Shown piece by piece: positions 5,802 through 59,500 of a stretch of 64,000 bases of DNA (position 1 is the stretch's first letter; every line of letters starts with the position of its first letter). Both the position numbers and the translations under genes were made by a program. The DNA comes from Promethearchaeia archaeon. Lineage in GTDB: Archaea; Asgardarchaeota; Lokiarchaeia; Sigyniarchaeales; SOKP01. The notes under the pieces are model-generated. The model made no database searches and was not told the DNA's origin. It saw only the letters and a program-made list of their open reading frames with translations. The stretch spans positions 26,938-90,937 of the forward strand of contig JAHQWG010000050.1 in assembly GCA_029856045.1 (NCBI GenBank), in the 5' to 3' direction.

Positions 5802-7085
5802 ATGTTAGATTATTTAAATCTCGATTATAAACCTTCTGATAATGATCTTAAAGTAATGTATTATGTTGAGAAAGCTGCTGATACTTCTTCTATAGAAAAA
5901 GCATGTGAGGAAATTGCTAAAGAAAGTTCTATTGGAACTTGGACTGATATTGTAACTCTTTCTGAGGATATTGCTCAAAGATTAAAACCATGCGTATATC
6001 ATATAAATAAAGAGAAAAAAATAATTAAGATCGCCTATAACGAGGAACTCTTCGAAGCAGATAATATTTCTCAAATCCTGAGTGCTATTGCTGGTAATAT
6101 TTATGGCATGAAAGCAATTAACAATTTAAGATTAATTGATATAGAGTTTCCAAAAAGTATAGTAAGTGTATATAAAGGACCTAAATTCGGAATAAAGGGA
6201 ATTCGCAAATTATTAAAAGTTTTTGGTAGACCTCTTTTGGGTACAATTGTTAAGCCAAAAGTGGGCTTAAATCCAAAACAGCACGCAAAAGTTTGCGGAG
6301 AGTCGTGGATAGGAGGTTTAGACATAGTAAAAGATGATGAAAACTTAACAAGCATGAAATTTAATAAATTTGAGACAAGAGTTAAAGAAACTTTAAAGAT
6401 ACGGGATAAAATCGAAATAGAAACTGGCGAAAAGAAAATATACATGCCAAATATTACAGCTCCGGTTAGTAAAATGAAAGAGAGAGCGGATTTTGTCATT
6501 GAACAAGGAGGAGAGTATGTAATGGTTGATATTATTACTTTAGGATTTTCTGCACTTCAAGAAATACGAGATTATCTTGATGATAAAAATGTTGTGATAC
6601 ACGCTCATAGGGCAATGCACGCTGCCATAACAAGAGACCCAAAACATGGTATGACGATGTTATCAATTGCTAAAATATCAAGGCTAATCGGAATGGACCA
6701 ACTACATACTGGTACAGTAGTTGGAAAAATGGAAGGTGGAGAGAAAGAAGTAGTAGATATCAATAAGGTACTTACTAATATGTTTATTGAAGAAGAAGAT
6801 TATTCAATGTTACATCAAGATTGGGGAAATATTAAGAAAACTTTCCCCGTTGCTTCTGGAGGTCTTTATCCTAATGTTGTTCATAAATTAATTGATATTT
6901 TAGGAACAGATATCGTGATTCAAGCGGGTGGAGGTGTTCATGGACATCCAGAAGGTACCGAAGCTGGAGCAAAAGCTATGAGGCAAGCAGTTCAAGCTTA
7001 TTTGGATAACATTAATTTAAGTGAATATGCAAAAACTCATAATGAATTAAAAAAAGCACTTGAAAAATGGAAATATTTAAAATAA
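5802..7085 (+). CDS. rbcL: Form III RuBisCO large subunit
   Basis: The 427-residue protein has the full catalytic set (spinach numbering in brackets): E41 (60), T46-W47, N99 (123), K151 (175), K153 (177), the carbamylation motif K177-D179-E180 (201/203/204) in GGLDIVKDDEN, H269 (294), R270 (295), H302 (327), loop-6 K309 (334), S352 (379) and the GGG phosphate loop at 376-378. It is therefore a true carboxylase rather than a RuBisCO-like form IV protein. Length and sequence fit archaeal form III, which consumes ribulose-1,5-bisphosphate made from AMP/nucleosides. The R15P isomerase that supplies this substrate is encoded at 12.9-13.9 kb. AMP phosphorylase is not in the window. Confidence 0.95.
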   Translation: MLDYLNLDYKPSDNDLKVMYYVEKAADTSSIEKACEEIAKESSIGTWTDIVTLSEDIAQRLKPCVYHINKEKKIIKIAYNEELFEADNISQILSAIAGNIYGMKAINNLRLIDIEFPKSIVSVYKGPKFGIKGIRKLLKVFGRPLLGTIVKPKVGLNPKQHAKVCGESWIGGLDIVKDDENLTSMKFNKFETRVKETLKIRDKIEIETGEKKIYMPNITAPVSKMKERADFVIEQGGEYVMVDIITLGFSALQEIRDYLDDKNVVIHAHRAMHAAITRDPKHGMTMLSIAKISRLIGMDQLHTGTVVGKMEGGEKEVVDINKVLTNMFIEEEDYSMLHQDWGNIKKTFPVASGGLYPNVVHKLIDILGTDIVIQAGGGVHGHPEGTEAGAKAMRQAVQAYLDNINLSEYAKTHNELKKALEKWKYLK

Positions 7086-10568: not shown

Positions 10569-11040
10569 TTATCCTACTAATTCTGGGTAAAGTCTTTCGA
10601 AATATATATGGATATAACTAGGAGCGAATATGCCCGCTTCAGTAATAATTCCATCAATATATCTCCTACTTACAGTTTCAAAGGCAGGATTTATTACATG
10701 TACGCCTTCTGGAGGATCCTCCCATATTTCCTTAGTATCTCTCATTTCAATTTTTTCTAATAATCCAAAAGAAGTCTCAGGATTATATTTTAGTAATGGT
10801 GAAGCAACATAAAAGAGTACATGTTCTTCTTGTGCAACCAAAGCTAATAATCTTAAGCCGGTTTTGTTTAAAACAGTACCTTCTGAAGTAATTGAATCAG
10901 CCCCAATTAAAATTAAGTCCACTTCAAAATGATTGACAGCCCAGCGCATTGCAGAATCAACTATATGAATTACCTCTATATTTTCTTCTAATAATTCTTT
11001 TGTCGTTTTTCTTCCTTGTAATTTCGGCTGAGTCTCTGAG
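10569..11040 (-). pseudogene. 5'-truncated copy of ribose-1,5-bisphosphate isomerase
   Basis: This copy covers the C-terminal half of the intact isomerase (from TETQPKLQGRK, about residue 159 on, to LYPELVG). Over the last 126 residues the two differ at about 11 positions. Homology ends abruptly near 11040, after GAGACTCAG on the minus strand. Upstream of that the frame runs into the stop codon of the corrinoid-protein gene with no start, the only in-frame Met being internal. The catalytic Cys (135 in the intact copy) is lost, while the Asp of GADSITSEG remains. It cannot make a functional isomerase by itself. Confidence 0.85.
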
Positions 11041-12945: not shown

Positions 12946-13890
12946 TTATCCTACTAATTCTGGGTAAAGTCTTTCGAAATATATATGGATATAACTAGGA
13001 GCAAAAATACCAGATTCAGTAATAATTCCATCAATATATCTCCGACTAACTGTTTCAAAGGCAGGATTCATTACTTGTACGCCTTCTGGGGGATTCTCCC
13101 ATATTTCATTAGGGGGTCTCATTTCAATCTTTTCTAATAATCCAAAAGAGGTTTCAGGATTATATTTCAGTAGCGGTGAAGCAACATAAAATGGTACATG
13201 TTCTTCATGTGCAACCAAAGCTAATAATCTTGAGCCGATTTTGTTTAAAACAGTTCCTTCTGAAGTAATTGAATCAGCCCCAATTAAAATTAAATCTACT
13301 TCAAAGTGATTAACTGCCCAGCGCATCGCGGAATCAACTATATGAATTACTTCTATATTCTCTTCTAACAACTCTTTCGTCGTTTTTCTTCCCTGTAATT
13401 TCGGCTGAGTCTCTGTATTTATAACTTTAAATTCTTTTCCCTGTTTTTTAGCCTCAATTAGAATTGCAGAAACAATGGTACTGTGACAATGCGTCATTAC
13501 AGTAAAACCTTCTGGATCTTCATATGGAATACGATTGGCACCTATTTTTGCGATTTTCTCTTTTGAATTTAATAATTTCTTATGATATTCCTCTTTATAT
13601 TGTTGAACTTTTAAAAGAACATCAGATAATGAAATAGAATCTGCTTCAAGTTCAAGCTTTTTAAGAATATATTTCAATCCATTTTTCATTGCCGGTTCTG
13701 TAGGGCGAGTATCAATTAATACATCTTTTGCCTTATATAATTGTTCTAATATCTCTTTTTTATTCGTTGCTTTTATTCTTTGAGCAAAACTATTTAAAAA
13801 ATCACAGGCACTCAAACATACATTAGTCGCACCTTGAATTTCTAAAGACCTAATTCTTTCTGCATCCTTTTTTAATTGTTCCATATCCAA
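12946..13890 (-). CDS. e2b2: Ribose-1,5-bisphosphate isomerase
   Basis: The 314-residue protein belongs to the eIF2B-alpha/MtnA-like family. VMTHCHST places the catalytic Cys at 135 and LILIGADSITSEG the catalytic Asp at 206, matching the Cys/Asp pair of the Thermococcus enzyme. NPAFETVSRRYIDGIITE is the conserved C-terminal block. It converts ribose-1,5-bisphosphate (from AMP phosphorylase) to ribulose-1,5-bisphosphate for form III RuBisCO, whose gene is 6 kb away. The assignment over a true eIF2B-like subunit rests on these residues and the RuBisCO context. A truncated duplicate lies at 10.57-11.04 kb. Confidence 0.88.
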   Translation of the reverse strand: MDMEQLKKDAERIRSLEIQGATNVCLSACDFLNSFAQRIKATNKKEILEQLYKAKDVLIDTRPTEPAMKNGLKYILKKLELEADSISLSDVLLKVQQYKEEYHKKLLNSKEKIAKIGANRIPYEDPEGFTVMTHCHSTIVSAILIEAKKQGKEFKVINTETQPKLQGRKTTKELLEENIEVIHIVDSAMRWAVNHFEVDLILIGADSITSEGTVLNKIGSRLLALVAHEEHVPFYVASPLLKYNPETSFGLLEKIEMRPPNEIWENPPEGVQVMNPAFETVSRRYIDGIITESGIFAPSYIHIYFERLYPELVG

Positions 13891-50727: not shown

Positions 50728-52416
50728 ATGACTGAAGTAATTAGAAATACTACAAGTATCTGTCCGGAATGTCTTCAACAAATTCCAGCCGAGATATATG
50801 TTGATGATAATACAAAATGGGTTATGATGCGAAAAGAATGTAAAACTCATGGTGAATTCAAGGATAAATTATCAATTAATAAGGAAGATTATGTTTGGGG
50901 TCAAAATTTCTGTAATGATGTTGGCTCAACTTTAACATCTACAAAACCAAGTTTTGTTAGTTCGGGGATTAAAGAAGGAAGGAACGGTTGCCCTTATGAT
51001 TGCGGCATCTGCGAGAACCATAAATCGGCTCCTTGTATTGCGTTAATCGATGTAACAAATAGATGTAATTTGGTATGTCCTATTTGTTTTGCTAATGCAA
51101 ATGCTGCAGGATATATTGTAGAACCCACATATGATCAAATTGTTCAAATTATGGAGCATTTTAGATCGATGAGACCAGTACCACCAGTTTTGCTTCAATT
51201 ATCTGGTGGGGAACCAACAATGAGAGATGACATATTCGACATAATAAGAAAAGGGCACGAACTTGGATTTACCGAAGTAATGCTTACTACCAATGGAGTA
51301 AAGTTAGGAAAATCTGTAGAGTATTGTAGAAAACTAAAACAAGCCAAATGTGATGCAGTCTATTTACAATTTGATGGTTGCACACCCGAAACTTATAAGA
51401 AAATAAGAGGCGTAAATCTATGGCCTTTAAAACAAAAAGTAATTGAAAATTGCAGAGAAGTTGGTTTAAAGGGTGTAATGCTTGTTCCAACGGTATGTAA
51501 AGGAATGAATGACCATGAAATTGGAAATATTATGAATTATGCTAAGGAGAATACTGATATAGTTGCCGGTGTTGTCTTTCAACCAGTATCTCTATGCGGA
51601 AGGATTAGCTATGAAGAATTAATGGATATGAGATATACTACAAGTGATTTGAAAGTTGCACTTAACGAATGTACAGGTGGAGCTATTACGTATTTTTACC
51701 CAATCGCAACTACAGGGAAATTCACGAGATTACTAGCATGGTTTGACGACATGCCTCAATTCTCTATGCTTTCTCACCAAGACTGTGGATTTGCTACTAT
51801 TGTACCTCTTAATGAACATGGTGAATGGGAACCTATTGAAAAGTATTTTGACGTTGAGGGGTTAATAAGGTGGGCAAATAAAGTTTGGGATATGGTAGAG
51901 AGTAAAGAAATGCCAAAACCTACGAATATGTTTGGAAATTTTGACATCAAAAATTTAGGTAAAATAGGAAATGTTATTGGTGATTTTATTGATGGAATGG
52001 CTGATGCAGCTTATAGAAATTTAATGAGAGCTTATTTTTTCGCAGGTCTTGTTAGATATGTTAAAAATCCAGAAAAGATTTTTTCATCAAAAACTTTGCA
52101 AAAGTTTGCAAGTCTTGTTTTCAAACCGGGATTGCAGGCTGCAGGAGCCTTTTTGCAATCGAAAAATTTAATGATTTCAGCGATGCATTTTCAAGATGCC
52201 TATAATTTTGACTTGGAGCGAGTATCGCGCTGTTTAGTTCACTATGGTGTGATAGATCCATCAGATCCTTCAAAGGTCTTAGAAATTCCATTTTGCGCAC
52301 ACAACACCATACATCGTCCACATATTGAGGAGCAATTAGCTAAAGGAGCATTGGATAAAACACCACAAGAAGTACAGGCCGAGATAGAGAGATTAGTTAA
52401 AGCAGTTCAAAAATAA
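50728..52416 (+). CDS. tes: Tes-like radical SAM enzyme (tetraether lipid synthase family, COG1964)
   Basis: The 562-residue protein has an N-terminal rubredoxin-like Cys set (C12, C15, C38), then NGCPYDCGICENHKSAPC, and the radical SAM site C113-x3-C117-x2-C120 (NRCNLVCPICFANA), with LQLSGGEPTMRDD as the SAM motif. A long C-terminal domain with CGFATIVPLN and GLVRYVKNPE follows. This layout is that of the archaeal Tes protein (MJ0619-like) that joins two archaeol chains to make tetraether lipids. Homologues with other substrates exist, so the exact role is not certain. GAGAGGTTA gives a good RBS. Confidence 0.78.
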   Translation: MTEVIRNTTSICPECLQQIPAEIYVDDNTKWVMMRKECKTHGEFKDKLSINKEDYVWGQNFCNDVGSTLTSTKPSFVSSGIKEGRNGCPYDCGICENHKSAPCIALIDVTNRCNLVCPICFANANAAGYIVEPTYDQIVQIMEHFRSMRPVPPVLLQLSGGEPTMRDDIFDIIRKGHELGFTEVMLTTNGVKLGKSVEYCRKLKQAKCDAVYLQFDGCTPETYKKIRGVNLWPLKQKVIENCREVGLKGVMLVPTVCKGMNDHEIGNIMNYAKENTDIVAGVVFQPVSLCGRISYEELMDMRYTTSDLKVALNECTGGAITYFYPIATTGKFTRLLAWFDDMPQFSMLSHQDCGFATIVPLNEHGEWEPIEKYFDVEGLIRWANKVWDMVESKEMPKPTNMFGNFDIKNLGKIGNVIGDFIDGMADAAYRNLMRAYFFAGLVRYVKNPEKIFSSKTLQKFASLVFKPGLQAAGAFLQSKNLMISAMHFQDAYNFDLERVSRCLVHYGVIDPSDPSKVLEIPFCAHNTIHRPHIEEQLAKGALDKTPQEVQAEIERLVKAVQK

Positions 52417-52890: not shown

Positions 52891-54129
52891 ATGAACAATT
52901 TAGAAAGTAAAAATGGAAAGGGATATTTCCAACATGCAATGGAAAAGAAAGTGAATGAGATAGATTACAGTAGAAATGTGTTGAAATTTTATTTATTTAA
53001 TCTTTTCATTAGCATGCACACAGTCAGCGGAGTGTTAGTTCCCTTTTTTATGCAATGGGGTCAAATAACATTTGTAGAAATTATGTTTTTGCAGAGTTAT
53101 TTCATGTTCATGATATTTGTATTTGAAGTTCCAAGTGGTGCAATTGCAGATTTTTTGGGACGTAAGCTCGCTATGATATTATCGGCTCTTGTGACTGCAT
53201 TGGCTACATTGGTTTATTCGAGTATTCCAAATATATTCATTTTTGCAATTGGAGAGACTCTTTGGGCATTAGGAGCAGCTTTGTCTTCTGGCGCAAATGA
53301 AGCTTTTATATATGATACATTGAAGAAAATAAATAAAAAGGAAAGATTTTCTAAGATCTGGGGTCGAGCAAATAGCATGTCGATAATTGGAATAATGATC
53401 AGTGGTCCAATTGGTTCGATGATTGCAGAATATATTTCATTGCAATTAACTATGACATTTTGCTTTTTCCCAATGATGATGGCTGCGATAGTGTCATTTA
53501 CTTTCAAGGAACCTAACTCCGACTTGGCGAAAGAATCAAAGAGATACTTAAATATATTAAAAGAAGGTTTTGTGCAATTAAGAAAAAATAAGATTATAAA
53601 ATTATTAGCTATTGACATGATTTCAGTTAATGTATTAGCATTCTTCATAATTTGGACTTATCAATTATATTTAGAAGCGCTTAATGTACCTATGGTTTAT
53701 TTCGGTTTCATATTGGCTATGATGACATTTACAGAGATGGTTTTTTTTAACCTTGTTCCAAAATTCATGAAATGGTTCAAGAAAGGTAAGAGATACTTAA
53801 CATTTAGCACAATGATAACAGGTATTGCATTTATTTTTATGAGTTTCACGATGATAGTCCCTATAAGTATAATTTTAATTATGATCATTATGGGTTTCGG
53901 ATTTTCGCGGCGATTAATTTTTGCAGAAGGAATCAACAAAGAGATTGAATCAGAGAACAGAGCTACAGTTTTAAGCGCAATAAGTATGCTCGGCGGAATT
54001 ATACAAGCTATAATGAATCCATTTATTGGAATCATGGCGACTTGGAATTTATATACGGTATTCATATTTTTAGGAACGACAATAATAGTGATTGCCTTTC
54101 TAACACCTATTAAGAATAAACATCTTTGA
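52891..54129 (+). CDS. Major facilitator superfamily transporter
   Basis: The 412-residue protein has 12 hydrophobic helices. The loop after helix 2, EVPSGAIADFLGRKLAMI, is the MFS motif A (G-x-x-x-D-x-x-G-R-[RK]). GFSRRLIFAEGINKEIESENRATVLSAISML is a family-specific loop. It belongs to drug/solute-type MFS carriers with no clear substrate. Next to it lies a second copy broken into two remnants (54.16-54.34 and 59.05-59.36 kb) which share its first 57 and last 96 residues. Confidence 0.85.
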   Translation: MNNLESKNGKGYFQHAMEKKVNEIDYSRNVLKFYLFNLFISMHTVSGVLVPFFMQWGQITFVEIMFLQSYFMFMIFVFEVPSGAIADFLGRKLAMILSALVTALATLVYSSIPNIFIFAIGETLWALGAALSSGANEAFIYDTLKKINKKERFSKIWGRANSMSIIGIMISGPIGSMIAEYISLQLTMTFCFFPMMMAAIVSFTFKEPNSDLAKESKRYLNILKEGFVQLRKNKIIKLLAIDMISVNVLAFFIIWTYQLYLEALNVPMVYFGFILAMMTFTEMVFFNLVPKFMKWFKKGKRYLTFSTMITGIAFIFMSFTMIVPISIILIMIIMGFGFSRRLIFAEGINKEIESENRATVLSAISMLGGIIQAIMNPFIGIMATWNLYTVFIFLGTTIIVIAFLTPIKNKHL

Positions 54130-54160
54130 TGTTTTTTATCTCAAAATAAAAAGTAGGTGT

Positions 54161-54345
54161 TATAGAACAACCAATTTGGAAAAAAATAATAGAACAGAGG
54201 ATTTCCAACAAGCAACGGAATATAAAGCAATGGTGATAGATTACAGTAGAAATACGCTGAAATTATTTTTATTTTATTTTTTTATATATTTACACGTTTC
54301 TATTGGAGTATTAGTTCCCTTTTACCTGGATTAAGGTCAAATTAA
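54161..54345 (+). pseudogene. N-terminal remnant of a second MFS transporter
   Basis: The frame reads NLEKNNRTEDFQQATEYKAM, VIDYSRNTLKLFLFYFFIYL, HVSIGVLVPFYLD-stop-GQI. It matches the intact gene (NLESKNGKGYFQHAMEKKV, EIDYSRNVLKFYLFNLFISM, HTVSGVLVPFFMQWGQI). The ATG is lost (ATA/AGA), the Trp codon before GQI is now TAA (54332-54334), and homology stops right after GQI. Confidence 0.85.
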
Positions 54346-54663: not shown

Positions 54664-54792
54664 CTATTCTTCTTCATCGTCCCATTCTTCTTCGTGCTCT
54701 TCTTCATCTTCATCATAATCAGGCCAATCTTCATCTTCATCTTCTTCTTCTTTTTTCTTCCTTTTTGGGCCATAACCACTATTTTCATCCAT
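54664..54792 (-). CDS. 42-residue highly acidic miniprotein
   Basis: The ATG at 54792-54790 is preceded by AAGGTGATAAATAA, a strong match to the archaeal Shine-Dalgarno (GGTGAT). The product begins MDENSGYGPKRKKKE, then is an almost pure Asp/Glu run with Trp (23, 37), Tyr 26 and His 33, ending WDDEEE. It has no membrane or signal sequence. The acidic run could bind cations or mimic nucleic acid. It lies 0.8 kb from the ATP-grasp gene, opposite in direction. Function unknown. Confidence 0.6.
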   Translation of the reverse strand: MDENSGYGPKRKKKEEEDEDEDWPDYDEDEEEHEEEWDDEEE

Positions 54793-55109
54793 TTATTTAT
54801 CACCTTATATTCTGTTATTGATATATGATATTTTTTTATGATAAACGATTGAAGTAATAACAGCTTTTGTTTATAAACTTACCGATTTTTGATGATATAT
54901 TTCTAAAAATTACATCTTAGAAAAAATTTGATATTTTTAAATGTATTAAAAACTCAGAATAAACATAGTATAATAGTAGATTAATTACATTAACTCATAT
55001 GATTATTGACTAAAAAATTTTTAAATACATCATATTAAAAAAAAAATTATTAAAATTAACTTTTAAAATCATATTTGAAATTTCTATTAATTAATACAGT
55101 AAATTTTCA

Positions 55110-55440
55110 ATGGAGATCTCAGAAATTTTTAGTGAATTAAGTTATCATTATGATGATATTAGCGATTTATGGTATGAATGGTTATTTTCTAGAATTTATT
55201 ATATTATTGCAAAAGAAGTAAAAAATAAATTCCAATCAAAAGAAGTGCTAGATATTGGCTGTGGGACTGGGTTTCAATCATTTTTTTAATCAGCAAGTGG
55301 AGCAAAAGTTCTAGGAGTGGATATTGCAAAACGTATCCTTGAAGTAGCAAATAAGAAATCTTTATTCACTCATTTTTTTCAAAATATGAAATATAAGATT
55401 AACTTTTTTATTTTGGATTTCCATATAAAATTATATATTT
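55110..55440 (+). pseudogene. Class I SAM methyltransferase remnant with in-frame stop
   Basis: From ATG 55110 the frame reads FSELSYHYDDISDLWYEWLF and EVLDIGCGTGFQS (SAM motif I), then FF-stop (TAA 55287-55289), and continues SASGAKVLGVDIAKRILEVA (motif II) before losing similarity around 55.4 kb. The stop falls between motifs I and II. The rest of the domain (motifs IV-VI) is absent, so no functional enzyme can be made. Confidence 0.75.
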
Positions 55441-55569
55441 TTACTTTTAATAAATTAGGAAATATATGATAGTTAAGAATATTAGATTATCTCAAGGTTG
55501 CACGGCAGTCTTGCGTTTTATTTCAATAAAAATGGAGTATTGAGAGTATAGAGAAGTTGAAAACAATAA

Positions 55570-56565
55570 ATGAAAAACATTGTTATTCTTTTTTATGATA
55601 AGACAAACAAAATTAAAATTTATGATTTTGAATTACCTATAGATGGTTATACTAATTTTAATGATTTTCAAAATGAATTAAATCATTTAAGAGATAAATA
55701 TAATTTTCTGATGATAGAGGACCACAGTGAGAGTATCGATTATTTTTTCCAAAAAAAGGATAAAATCGATTTAGTCGTTAATTTTGCAGATAATGGATAT
55801 GAAAACGATTTCTCAAAGAATGCATTTTTTATAGATTTATTTAACCATTTAGGCATAAAATATACAGGTAGGCAAGCGAATAATGTAGAATTCTTTGAAA
55901 GAAAAGATCTAATGTTATATTTATTCGATTATATTGGAATTAATTATCCAAATACCGTCATATATTATCCGGGAATAAATTTAAGGTTTTTAAAACAAAA
56001 AATTAACACCTTGAGATTTCCTGCAATCGTTAAAACGGGGATATCTGGTGATTCATTACTTTTAGATGAAAATAGCATTTGTAATTCGTTTAAAAAGGTT
56101 ATAGATAGAATTGAATATATTGAGAAGAGTTTAGGTGAAAAAAACGTCGTTCTTGTTCAAGAATTCATTGAAAAAGCGAGGGAATATACAACTTTGGTAA
56201 TTGGTAATCACGAATGTAGTGATGTGAAAGCATTTACTATCCTAGTAACTCCCATAAAATTTTACGATTTCGAGCAAAAAAATTATAGTGCTGCTCCAGT
56301 AGAGGATTATTACCATAGATGTGATATCGAAAATACTGATTTATTAAAAAACATTGAGAATAAATTAATTTATTTAAAAAAAATTACAGACTGCAAGGAT
56401 TATGTGAGATTTGATTGGCTACTTGATCAAGATAATAAGTTTTATTTACTTGATTTAAACGCCAATCCCTCCTTTGATTCGACAGTTTTTAGATTATATA
56501 AAGAATTTTATTCAATAGAGGGAAGCATAATAGGACATATTATAAATTCTGCTTTAAAAAGATAA
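55570..56565 (+). CDS. ATP-grasp ligase, D-Ala-D-Ala ligase-like
   Basis: The 331-residue protein has the Ddl-type order: an N-terminal Rossmann-like domain (DLVVNFADNGYENDF, LGIKYTGRQANN), an ATP-binding core (RFPAIVKTGISGDSL, VVLVQEFIEK) and the metal site YVRFDWLLDQDNKFYLLDLNANPSFD. The usual E-x-N pair (LLEINPNP) appears as D-x-N (LLDLNANP). It should form an amide or ester bond from a carboxylate with ATP. No peptidoglycan genes are here and Asgard archaea lack murein, so the substrate is probably different. It is the first of two ATP-grasp genes in the cassette. Confidence 0.8.
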   Translation: MKNIVILFYDKTNKIKIYDFELPIDGYTNFNDFQNELNHLRDKYNFLMIEDHSESIDYFFQKKDKIDLVVNFADNGYENDFSKNAFFIDLFNHLGIKYTGRQANNVEFFERKDLMLYLFDYIGINYPNTVIYYPGINLRFLKQKINTLRFPAIVKTGISGDSLLLDENSICNSFKKVIDRIEYIEKSLGEKNVVLVQEFIEKAREYTTLVIGNHECSDVKAFTILVTPIKFYDFEQKNYSAAPVEDYYHRCDIENTDLLKNIENKLIYLKKITDCKDYVRFDWLLDQDNKFYLLDLNANPSFDSTVFRLYKEFYSIEGSIIGHIINSALKR

Positions 56566-56933
56566 TTTTATTTTTAACTTTGAAAATTTTTAGTCAAAGT
56601 AGCGCCGAAATTAATTTCACAATGAAGATTGAAATTTTTACCTTTATTGGGTTTTTCCGTTTATATCGGGCGTCTATTTACTTTTAATTGATTAATAATC
56701 CTTATCCAAAATATAATAATTTTAATAGGACTACTAATTTTCTATCAATTAAGATCAAAAATCGAAACTAAAGTATTAAGCAATATTTAAAGTTAAGAAA
56801 ATTTTAATTAATTTTTACTAGGTTATTTGGTTGTAAGTGCAGTATTAAAGAATAAACGATAACCTTAAATAGTAATGAAATTGTTTTAATTTCAATAAAA
56901 ATAATATATTTCCTTATTGGGAATATAAAGTCA
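56566..56933. other. Gap between the two ATP-grasp genes
   Basis: 368 AT-rich bases with stops in all frames and no gene remnant that I recognise. It presumably holds the promoter of the fusion gene, with AT-rich TATA-like runs at about 56880-56915. Confidence 0.4.
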
Positions 56934-58877
56934 ATGAATAGTATACAATCCAAAAGTAAAAAAAATTCCCACCACAAATGGTTTAATAATAGGAAATACG
57001 CCTCACTAGGACCTGTAGAAAATCTTGAACAATATGTACGCTCTGATTGGTGGAAACGAATTTTCAATTCGCTTTATTTGAAGACAGATGGTGATGTTGT
57101 AAATGATCAAAAAATTACTGCGCAAGAAGTTACTCTATTTTTAAAAATTTTAGAATTAAATCCAAACGAGAATATTCTCGATCTTTGTTGCGGACAAGGG
57201 CGTCACACAATAGAATTAAACAGAAGAGGATTTAAAAATGTTTTTGGACTTGATCAATCTTCTTACTTGATCCAAAAAGCCCGAACGGTCGTAAAAAAAG
57301 AGCACTTACCTGCTAAATTCAAGGAGGGCGACGCACGAAAATTGCCATATCCCACAGATATGTTTGATGTTGTCATGATATTAGGTAATAGCTTTGGATA
57401 TTTCGAGTCAATAAAAGATGATTCAAAAGTATTAAAAGAAGTCTTAAGGGTACTGAACCCTTTGGGTAAAATCTTTTTAGATTTAGCTGATGGAGAGTAT
57501 TTAAAGAAATATTTTCAGAAGCGTTCATGGGAATGGGTAGATACAAAATATTTTGTTTGCCGAGAACGTTCTCTCTCACAAGATCAACAACGCTTAATAT
57601 CCCGTGAGGTTATTACGGATGCAGAAAAGGGGGTAATAGCAGATCAATTTTATGCAGAACGTTTATATAACAAAGAACAAATAAAAGAATTATTAAAGTT
57701 AGTAGGTTTTAAAAAGATTCAATTTCACGGTGAAATTACCCCTAATTCTCAACGAAATCAAGATTTGGGAATGATGAAGCGTCGGATACTTGTTTCTGCA
57801 GTGGTAGAAAAAGAATGGAGTGAAGTAAAACTAAAAAAAAAGAAACAAATTCGAAATGTAGTGGTTATTCTAGGGGATCCAAAAAAGTCTGACATCATTA
57901 AACCAAATTCTAAGTTTGATGATGATGATTTTTATACAATTGATAAACTGAAATCATCTTTGAGAGATTTAATAAATTATCGTTTTATATATCTTGATAA
58001 TCATGACAGCCTTATTCTTGAATTGACTAATCTTAAAAATAAGATTGATTTTGTGTTTAACTTATGTGATGAAGGTTATATTAATGATGCCCGAAAAGAA
58101 CTCCACATTCCTGCCTTGCTAGAAATACTTGGACTTCCATATACAGGTGCAGGTCCTCAATGCTTGGCGTTTTGTTATGATAAATCACTTGTGCGAGGTA
58201 TTGCTAAAGAAATGGGGATCCCTGTTGCTGAGGGTATCTATATTAAACAAGAAGATATTAAATATGATCTTGGGTTTGATTTTCCGGTCATTGTAAAACC
58301 CAATTTTGGAGACTCTAGCTTTGGAATTACAAAAAACAGCGTCGCTAGAAGTAGTGAAGATTTAATCAATGCAATAACAGAAATTAGGGAGAAATTCGGT
58401 TATGATAAACCAATTTTAATTGAAGAATTTCTTACTGGAAATGATATATCTGTGGGAATTATAGGAAATCCCCCTGATTATTACCAAGTATCTATTATTG
58501 AAGAAGATTATTCCTCACTTCCAGAAGATTTACCGAAAATTTGTGGTTATGAAGCTAAATGGTTATCTGACTCAGTCTATAGGAAAATCACATCGATTCC
58601 AGCTCAAATCGATGATGAAATAAAAAATTATATCATTGATAGCTGTTTAAAATTATTTAAACGACTCGAGTGTAGGGATTACTGCAGATTTGACTGGCGT
58701 TTAGATTCAAAAGGTATTCCTAAATTACTGGAGATAAACCCAAATCCAGGATGGTGTTGGGACGGACATCTCGCAAAAATGTCAGAAATTGAAGGAATAT
58801 CATATAAAGACATGTTATTTGCTATTTTACAGGCTACTGAAAAACGTATCGGATTGCAACTCGTAAATGGAGCTTAA
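56934..58877 (+). CDS. Methyltransferase-ATP-grasp (Ddl-like) fusion protein
   Basis: The 647-residue protein joins two enzymes. Residues about 1-295 form a class I SAM methyltransferase (motif I ILDLCCGQGRHT 81-92, motif II FGLDQSS, AEKGVIADQFYAERLYN). From about 305 a D-Ala-D-Ala-ligase-like ATP-grasp domain follows: FVFNLCDEGYINDARKELHI, LGLPYTGAGPQCLAFCYDKS, VIVKPNFGDSSFGITKNS, LIEEFLTGNDISVG, RFDWRLDSKGIPKLLEINPNPG with the E-x-N metal ligands intact. Fusion suggests one pathway that both methylates and ligates the same product. The companion stand-alone ATP-grasp gene lies 370 bases upstream. Confidence 0.85.
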   Translation: MNSIQSKSKKNSHHKWFNNRKYASLGPVENLEQYVRSDWWKRIFNSLYLKTDGDVVNDQKITAQEVTLFLKILELNPNENILDLCCGQGRHTIELNRRGFKNVFGLDQSSYLIQKARTVVKKEHLPAKFKEGDARKLPYPTDMFDVVMILGNSFGYFESIKDDSKVLKEVLRVLNPLGKIFLDLADGEYLKKYFQKRSWEWVDTKYFVCRERSLSQDQQRLISREVITDAEKGVIADQFYAERLYNKEQIKELLKLVGFKKIQFHGEITPNSQRNQDLGMMKRRILVSAVVEKEWSEVKLKKKKQIRNVVVILGDPKKSDIIKPNSKFDDDDFYTIDKLKSSLRDLINYRFIYLDNHDSLILELTNLKNKIDFVFNLCDEGYINDARKELHIPALLEILGLPYTGAGPQCLAFCYDKSLVRGIAKEMGIPVAEGIYIKQEDIKYDLGFDFPVIVKPNFGDSSFGITKNSVARSSEDLINAITEIREKFGYDKPILIEEFLTGNDISVGIIGNPPDYYQVSIIEEDYSSLPEDLPKICGYEAKWLSDSVYRKITSIPAQIDDEIKNYIIDSCLKLFKRLECRDYCRFDWRLDSKGIPKLLEINPNPGWCWDGHLAKMSEIEGISYKDMLFAILQATEKRIGLQLVNGA

Positions 58878-59049: not shown

Positions 59050-59358
59050 TGAATTAAACTTATATTCATGAGCTTTACGACGTTTGTCCCAATAAGTATA
59101 ATTTTTATTATGATCATTATGGGGTTCGGGTTTTCGCGACGATTAATTTTTACAGATGGAATCAACAAACAGATTGAATCAGAGAACAGAGCTATATTTT
59201 TAAGCGCAATTAGTATGCTCGGCGGAATTTTACAAGCTATAATGAACCCATTTATTGGAATCATGGCAACATGGAATTTATATGCGGTATTCTTATTTTT
59301 GGGAACAATAATAATAATTTTTGCCTTCATAACTCCTGTTAAGAATAAATATCTTTAA
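59050..59358 (+). pseudogene. C-terminal remnant of the second MFS transporter
   Basis: From an ATG at 59068 the frame encodes 96 residues that match the last 96 of the intact MFS (FGFSRRLIFTDGINKQIESE, NRAIFLSAISMLGGILQAIM). The original Met-start of the MFS is missing; this ATG is an internal Met. Homology ends abruptly at about 59.05 kb on the left. With the N-terminal remnant at 54.16 kb it shows the second copy was split by an insertion. Confidence 0.85.
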
Positions 59359-59500
59359 TATCCTAATTAATACATAGCTTGGGGCTATTAAATACCATAA
59401 ATTTTGAAAAAAATCATTATTGCATGGATATTCTTTAAAAATAACCAATTTCTGAATAAATTATAAAATAAGATTAAAATCCATATTGATCAACAGAAAC

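Follow-up and report, generated by a model that had tools for sequence, protein, structure and literature searches.

A methyltransferase-ATP-grasp fusion enzyme of bacteria and archaea and its association with acidic mini-proteins in Lokiarchaea

D-Ala-D-Ala ligases (Ddl) and the VanA/C enzymes (PF07478/TIGR01205) are ATP-grasp ligases, and the former activate a carboxylate as an acyl phosphate that is then joined to an amine. Small acidic proteins or peptides accompany ligases in other described systems: the Trp-containing LysW/ArgW carriers are paired with the ATP-grasp ligases LysX/ArgX, while graspetides, which are microviridin-type ribosomally synthesized and post-translationally modified peptides, combine an ATP-grasp ligase, a methyltransferase and an acidic peptide encoded nearby. 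In the Pup-proteasome system, the acidic protein is small and disordered-looking, and its ligase has a glutamine-synthetase fold. Here, we describe a 647-residue protein that fuses a class I S-adenosylmethionine (AdoMet) methyltransferase to a Ddl-like ATP-grasp ligase. It is encoded at 56934-58877 (+) in a stretch of 64,000 nucleotides (the window) from a lokiarchaeal genome of 3.34 Mb in 55 contigs. A first-pass annotation of the window had grouped this fusion with a second Ddl-like ATP-grasp gene and an open reading frame (ORF) for an acidic 42-residue peptide as a candidate peptide-modifying system. All three ORFs were found where it had placed them, with Pfam domains for both ATP-grasp genes and for the methyltransferase. 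The observation is confirmed and its interpretation partly supported, with the enzyme family as the firmest result.

The methyltransferase half of the fusion (57009-57812, +, residues ~26-293) matches Pfam Methyltransf_25 at 1.6e-19 and Protein Data Bank (PDB) entry 9ri2 at 3.7e-20. It shares the Rossmann core, motif I (ILDLCCGQGRH) and an (N/S)SFGYFE segment with class I AdoMet methyltransferases of unassigned function (PDB 9ri2, 1ve3), and differs from them by a conserved N-terminal WW..IFNSLYLKTDGDVV segment, by RSWEW and QDLGMM motifs and by the C-terminal ligase. This ligase half (57846-58853, +, residues ~305-640) matches Pfam Dala_Dala_lig_C (PF07478) at 1.6e-28. In an alignment of 69 fusion proteins, more than 100 columns are invariant across the whole length, and the invariant residues include D83, C86, G87, G89 and R90 of methyltransferase motif I and K455, S462, E497, K542, R585, D587, E600 and N602 of the ATP-grasp half. 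The structure model is confident, with a predicted local distance difference test score (pLDDT) of 85; its predicted template-modelling score (pTM) of 0.53 leaves it uncertain how the halves are placed relative to each other. The modelled ligase half resembles Ddl structures (Foldseek, top 50 matches, TM(target) 0.64-0.81). AdoMet-dependent methylation and ATP-dependent ligation are the two predicted activities, and they may be coupled.

With Ddl and VanA/C, the fusion shares the ATP-grasp fold and the ATP/Mg core (K455, S461-S462, R585-D587, E600-N602), but it differs at the substrate sites, for which a canonical Ddl encoded near the fusion in an Atribacterial genome served as the comparison. 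The EHEVS motif of the first D-Ala site is missing, and the region reads GDP..D..KP...FDDDDFYTI. Ser150 and Tyr216 of DdlB are conserved in D-Ala-D-Ala producers (PMC7691350); at these positions, the fusion keeps the Ser (S461) and carries an invariant Trp543 in place of the Tyr. The loop that holds the carboxylate of the second D-Ala, PGxTxxS(M/L) with its SxSM signature, is replaced by PGWCWDGH (within NPNPGWCWDGH). Judged by these residues, the fusion is not a D-Ala-D-Ala ligase, and it would apply a Ddl-like mechanism, acyl phosphate formation followed by amine attack, to other substrates. In Pfam, NCBIfam and the PDB, the ligase halves match Ddl and Van entries best, as would be expected of a D-Ala-D-X ligase (Ddl/Van type) gained for peptidoglycan-like chemistry or D-cycloserine resistance. 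However, the fusion scores 128 bits against TIGR01205, the NCBIfam Ddl model, whose curated cut-off is 246, both D-Ala recognition motifs are absent, and the Atribacterial genome has its canonical Ddl besides the fusion. Alanine racemase (PF00842) was likewise detected in 0 of 13 genomes, with control genomes positive in 8 of 14 cases, and taken together a D-Ala-D-X role is scarcely credible. A scan of the window genome with PF07478 found no canonical Ddl and four matches only (the two ATP-grasps of the locus, one weak match and CarB). Together with the missing alanine racemase, this supports the earlier remark that Ddl-like ligases occur here in an archaeon not expected to make peptidoglycan.

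The fusion is a real family and was previously unnamed: the open-access literature yielded no description of a methyltransferase-ATP-grasp fusion, and existing names are only the generic ones of its domains. It occurs in ~45 genomes of the Asgard phylum at 57-68% identity. A scan of GTDB genomes returned at least 546 relatives, the best 80 of which match over essentially their full length at 61-68% identity and are distributed over more than 20 phyla of bacteria and archaea. Hosts among the matches listed include Atribacteria, Planctomycetes, Thermotogae, Aminicenantes, Aerophobetes, Stahlbacteria, Tectomicrobia, Cloacimonadota, Omnitrophota, Chloroflexi, Methanoculleus, Methanophagales, Altiarchaeota, Nitrososphaerota and others; many of these genomes are metagenome bins, so that single taxon assignments may be wrong. 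The family tree is bush-like, and the window copy clusters with 21 other Lokiarchaeal copies (98%), beside those of genomes G154 and G101 (99%). This placement marks the fusion as a long-resident gene and rules out its recent foreign insertion. Its distribution is patchy, with four congeners of the window genome lacking it. A viral, plasmid or defence origin is also unsupported, as no homologue was found in viral contigs, plasmid matches were only plain Ddl-like proteins at ~30% identity, and PADLOC returned only a generic methyltransferase model. No constant neighbour gene family or conserved operon was seen across the loci compared. Because full-length homologues occur without a common neighbour, the single polypeptide would carry both steps, and the union of the domains in one protein that has no operon partners suggests a single small pathway for the two steps. 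That the fusion is kept at 57-68% identity across more than 20 bacterial and archaeal phyla, and in no fixed operon, points to a broadly useful role in anaerobic and subsurface microbes.

The acidic Trp-containing mini-protein gene of the window lies at 54664-54792 (-). It encodes 42 residues (MDENSGYGPKRKKKEEEDEDEDWPDYDEDEEEHEEEWDDEEE), 60% of them Asp or Glu, and is preceded by AAGGTGAT, with a Shine-Dalgarno-like AAGGTGA at 54800-54806 (-). Taken alone, a 42-codon ORF is uninformative, since the stretch is (GAA/GAT)-rich and 42 ORFs of 42-200 residues lie within 48-64 kb. The mini-ORF rises above chance because 19 of 27 related genomes have a mini-ORF of similar composition next to their fusion gene. 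A protein homology search with it found no match in 64 relatives, and its apparent orphan status was overturned by composition and pattern scans. The sequence is of low complexity, and its composition hides the family from ordinary homology searches, which serves as a caution. Within 3 kb of the fusion, the composition scan counted 20 acidic small ORFs, compared with 2 in the remainder of these loci (0.034/kb versus 0.0024/kb), all in the Lokiarchaeal family. The DNA pattern used, [DE]3W[DE]3, was run on 65 genomes, in which the reversed pattern, taken as control, gave no match. The mini-protein family was defined by the composition scan, a motif scan, the DNA pattern and locus inspection, and its calls depend on thresholds and on the eye. 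A single EEEWEEE match present in many genomes has another composition and was set apart as background. Members have 30-90 residues and a short Lys-rich start (sometimes GPKK), followed by Asp/Glu runs interrupted by Trp (39% Asp, 20% Glu, 6% Trp, 1.6% Ser, 0.8% Thr and 0.2% Cys). Lys residues stand mostly ahead of the acidic part, and the C-termini vary without a common terminal motif. Shine-Dalgarno-like sites precede the start codon of 39 of 51 mini-ORFs, and the mini-proteins are therefore probably translated. At three loci (L252, L253 and L259), acidic mini-proteins also occur as tandem pairs beside a cyclophilin gene, and several of them contain a DYNDG(E/D)W motif.

Among 65 genomes of the window's family, 24 have both the fusion and a mini-protein, 3 the fusion only, 7 a mini-protein only and 31 neither. 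Mini-proteins are thus present in 24/27 genomes with the fusion versus 7/38 without it (Fisher 1.2e-8). The co-occurrence persists when stratified by genus (Mantel-Haenszel 1.6e-6) and was reached in 0 of 20,000 within-genus permutations, with the qualification that congeneric genomes are not independent of each other by descent and that genes can be hidden by incomplete bins; in the window's own genus, no genome but that of the window has either gene. Adjacency takes several arrangements in both orientations. In the main syntenic block, the mini-protein gene is divergent from the fusion at a distance of ~300-940 bp. In G098-G101 and G106, it lies on the fusion strand 12-374 bp upstream, and in the window, at a major facilitator superfamily (MFS) transporter site, it lies 2.1 kb upstream. 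On the Lokiarchaeal tree, adjacency is found on both sides of the deepest split, with orientation switched and adjacency kept. The link between mini-protein and fusion is statistically real and non-random within the Lokiarchaeal family, which upholds that part of the earlier proposal.

We tentatively prefer, at somewhat less than an even chance, to regard the fusion as a self-contained bifunctional enzyme for methylation and ligation that has a Loki-specific acidic partner acting as carrier, acceptor or accessory. The N-terminal half would bind AdoMet and methylate a substrate, and the C-terminal half would activate a carboxylate as an acyl phosphate and join it to an amine, forming an amide or peptide bond in the manner of D-Ala-D-Ala ligases. 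The reaction would be general enough to be maintained at ~60-68% identity across bacteria and archaea without a fixed partner gene. The Lokiarchaeal enzyme would then have acquired a dedicated small partner, the D/E-rich, Trp-containing, disordered-looking mini-protein, which would most probably serve the ligase half as a carboxylate-rich acceptor or carrier, or else bind it as an accessory. Such a role as substrate or partner would make the mini-protein a concrete handle on the enzyme, either as its substrate or carrier or as its regulator. The LysW/LysX pairing is similar in kind, but the mini-proteins, with almost no Cys, lack the zinc cysteines of LysW and have no EDWGE as a constant C-terminus, while the fusion ligase is Ddl-like and has no GSWGR motif of the LysX/ArgX type.

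Several observations weigh against a dedicated partnership. Such a mini-protein is absent from 84 fusion loci outside Lokiarchaea, where no convincing conserved small ORF was found either, and the core reaction consequently cannot need it. The mini-protein is a Lokiarchaeal addition outside the enzyme's core reaction. Beyond this group, the fusion recurs without the mini-ORF, a pattern that the first-pass annotation had itself named as refuting its proposal. Seven genomes have mini-proteins with no fusion detected, although in one of them (G126) the contig ends at the expected fusion site. Extra mini-protein copies adjoin genes for deoxyhypusine synthase/PvlArgDC, cyclophilin and a DUF255 protein, and the mini-protein is therefore not tied to the fusion alone. 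Part of the adjacency, moreover, reflects shared ancestry of one syntenic block, which lies beside a MobA-like gene and supplies a large share of the cases. These same facts speak for another reading, in which the product of the fusion is in all lineages a methylated dipeptide-like or amide metabolite, while the mini-protein is an independent multi-copy acidic protein (for example, metal-, polyamine- or nucleic-acid-binding) kept nearby by inherited gene order. We consider this a serious possibility, if a doubtful one, because the co-occurrence survives genus stratification and within-genus permutation, and because adjacency is kept through changes of orientation and at the unrelated MFS locus of the window. 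Genes for PvlArgDC and deoxyhypusine synthase-like proteins were also noted in the fusion region of L055, L061, L069, L080 and other Lokiarchaeal loci, often with an acidic mini-protein of their own, and a polyamine link is possible.

The second Ddl-like ATP-grasp (55570-56565, +, 331 residues; Pfam Dala_Dala_lig_C at 1.2e-15) is a real gene, but is best excluded from the system into which the first-pass annotation had placed it. It was found in 6 of 226 related genomes, all Lokiarchaeal, at 74-81% identity. In the five other genomes, the fusion lies elsewhere or is absent, the neighbours are unrelated and no mini-protein stands near the gene. Treating the tandem ATP-grasps as one pathway was accordingly rejected, the 331-residue gene being rare and never adjoining the fusion elsewhere; a structure model built from the 6 sequences was unusable (pLDDT 41). 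The first-pass proposal amounts to a cluster of the graspetide kind: an acidic ribosomal peptide would be turned into a natural product by a methyltransferase and two ATP-grasp ligases. ATP-grasp, methyltransferase and acidic peptide do make up the graspetide parts list, and UbiE-like methyltransferases have been reported in some graspetide loci (PMC8939145). Yet the second ligase is unlinked in other genomes, the mini-proteins are nearly devoid of Ser and Thr, and the methyltransferase is of a different type. The ligases are Ddl-like, with no graspetide-type (RimK/MvdD) model among the NCBIfam matches listed and rimK reaching only 22 bits with the 331-residue protein. A gene for an acidic peptide stands beside the ligase in 19/27 Lokiarchaeal genomes and at 0/84 loci elsewhere, the enzyme being widespread and in most lineages without the peptide. 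No recurrent transporter, protease or leader features were seen at the loci. A graspetide-like cluster is improbable, and a peptide natural product is still a guess.

In 10/27 fusion genomes, the fusion is followed on its own strand, after 2-82 bp, by a divergent paralogue of the proteasomal AAA ATPase PAN (e.g. L055:7752-8969 and orthologues); canonical PAN is additionally present in nearly all Lokiarchaeal genomes. At least two PAN genes are present in 17/27 genomes with the fusion versus 7/38 without it (Fisher 5e-4). Together with the small, acidic, low-complexity mini-protein and a predicted ATP-dependent carboxylate-amine ligase, this recalls the Pup-proteasome. In a Pup-like tagging system, the mini-protein would be the tag, the ATP-grasp half its ligase and the second PAN-type ATPase the unfoldase of tagged proteins. 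We regard this as very unlikely, as the Pup ligase fold is not ATP-grasp, the variable mini-protein C-termini offer no shared terminal attachment residue, the lone PAN of the window genome does not adjoin the fusion, and most fusion-bearing lineages have none of these parts. A broader Lokiarchaeal conjugation pathway, with the fusion loading or attaching the mini-protein as tag or carrier and coupled in some genomes to the second proteasomal ATPase, is unlikely as well. If true, tagging or carrier loading would rely here on a ligase fold unused by ubiquitin, Pup or LysW.

Other Ddl-like ligases were encountered in the compared genomes. A stand-alone ATP-grasp 50% identical to the fusion ligase half occurs at L072 (G159) and L076 (G158), adjoined in both by a B12-radical-SAM-like protein. 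The proximity of 4Fe-4S and B12-radical-SAM proteins to Ddl-like genes in two lineages was judged coincidental. G087 carries two tandem Ddl-like ATP-grasps of 377 and 522 residues (L079:8232-10966), the second with a putative GNAT-acetyltransferase-like C-terminal extension. Neighbourhoods of rhizobial plasmid ATP-grasps gave no functional clue.

The genes discussed here lie in the window between remnants of an MFS gene. An intact MFS transporter (copy 1; 52891-54129, +) is syntenic with sister genomes and is followed by an N-terminal remnant of a second copy (54134-54342, +) at the left edge of the block, and a C-terminal MFS remnant (59060-59361, +) forms the right edge. At the matching site in the sister genome G097, both of the tandem MFS genes are intact. 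Downstream of the block, synteny with sister genomes is not regained, which identifies it as a rearranged site and not a clean insertion. The inserted segment described earlier thus holds as a block between MFS remnants, but not as a recent arrival of the fusion. Between the mini-ORF and the second ATP-grasp lies a decayed methyltransferase gene (55110-55460, +), overlooked in the first-pass annotation, with an in-frame TAA at 55287-55289 beyond which similarity is lost.

Adjoining the MFS pair is a gene for the tetraether lipid synthase Tes (50728-52416, +; NCBIfam NF045702, 455 bits, above the cut-off), which is kept in all sister genomes. The non-syntenic right flank, from 59565 to the window end (+), is a very long open frame, in which a family 5 solute-binding protein domain occurs along with NosD/beta-helix repeats. 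Farther away, the window encodes a RuBisCO large-chain homologue (5802-7085, +; PF00016 at 3.7e-94, PF02788 at 3.5e-38). An IF-2B family gene and a separate C-terminal-half fragment (10569-10949 and 12946-13890, -) flank a URO-D type methyltransferase and a corrinoid protein, and represent a partial gene duplication around this B12 methyl-transfer pair.

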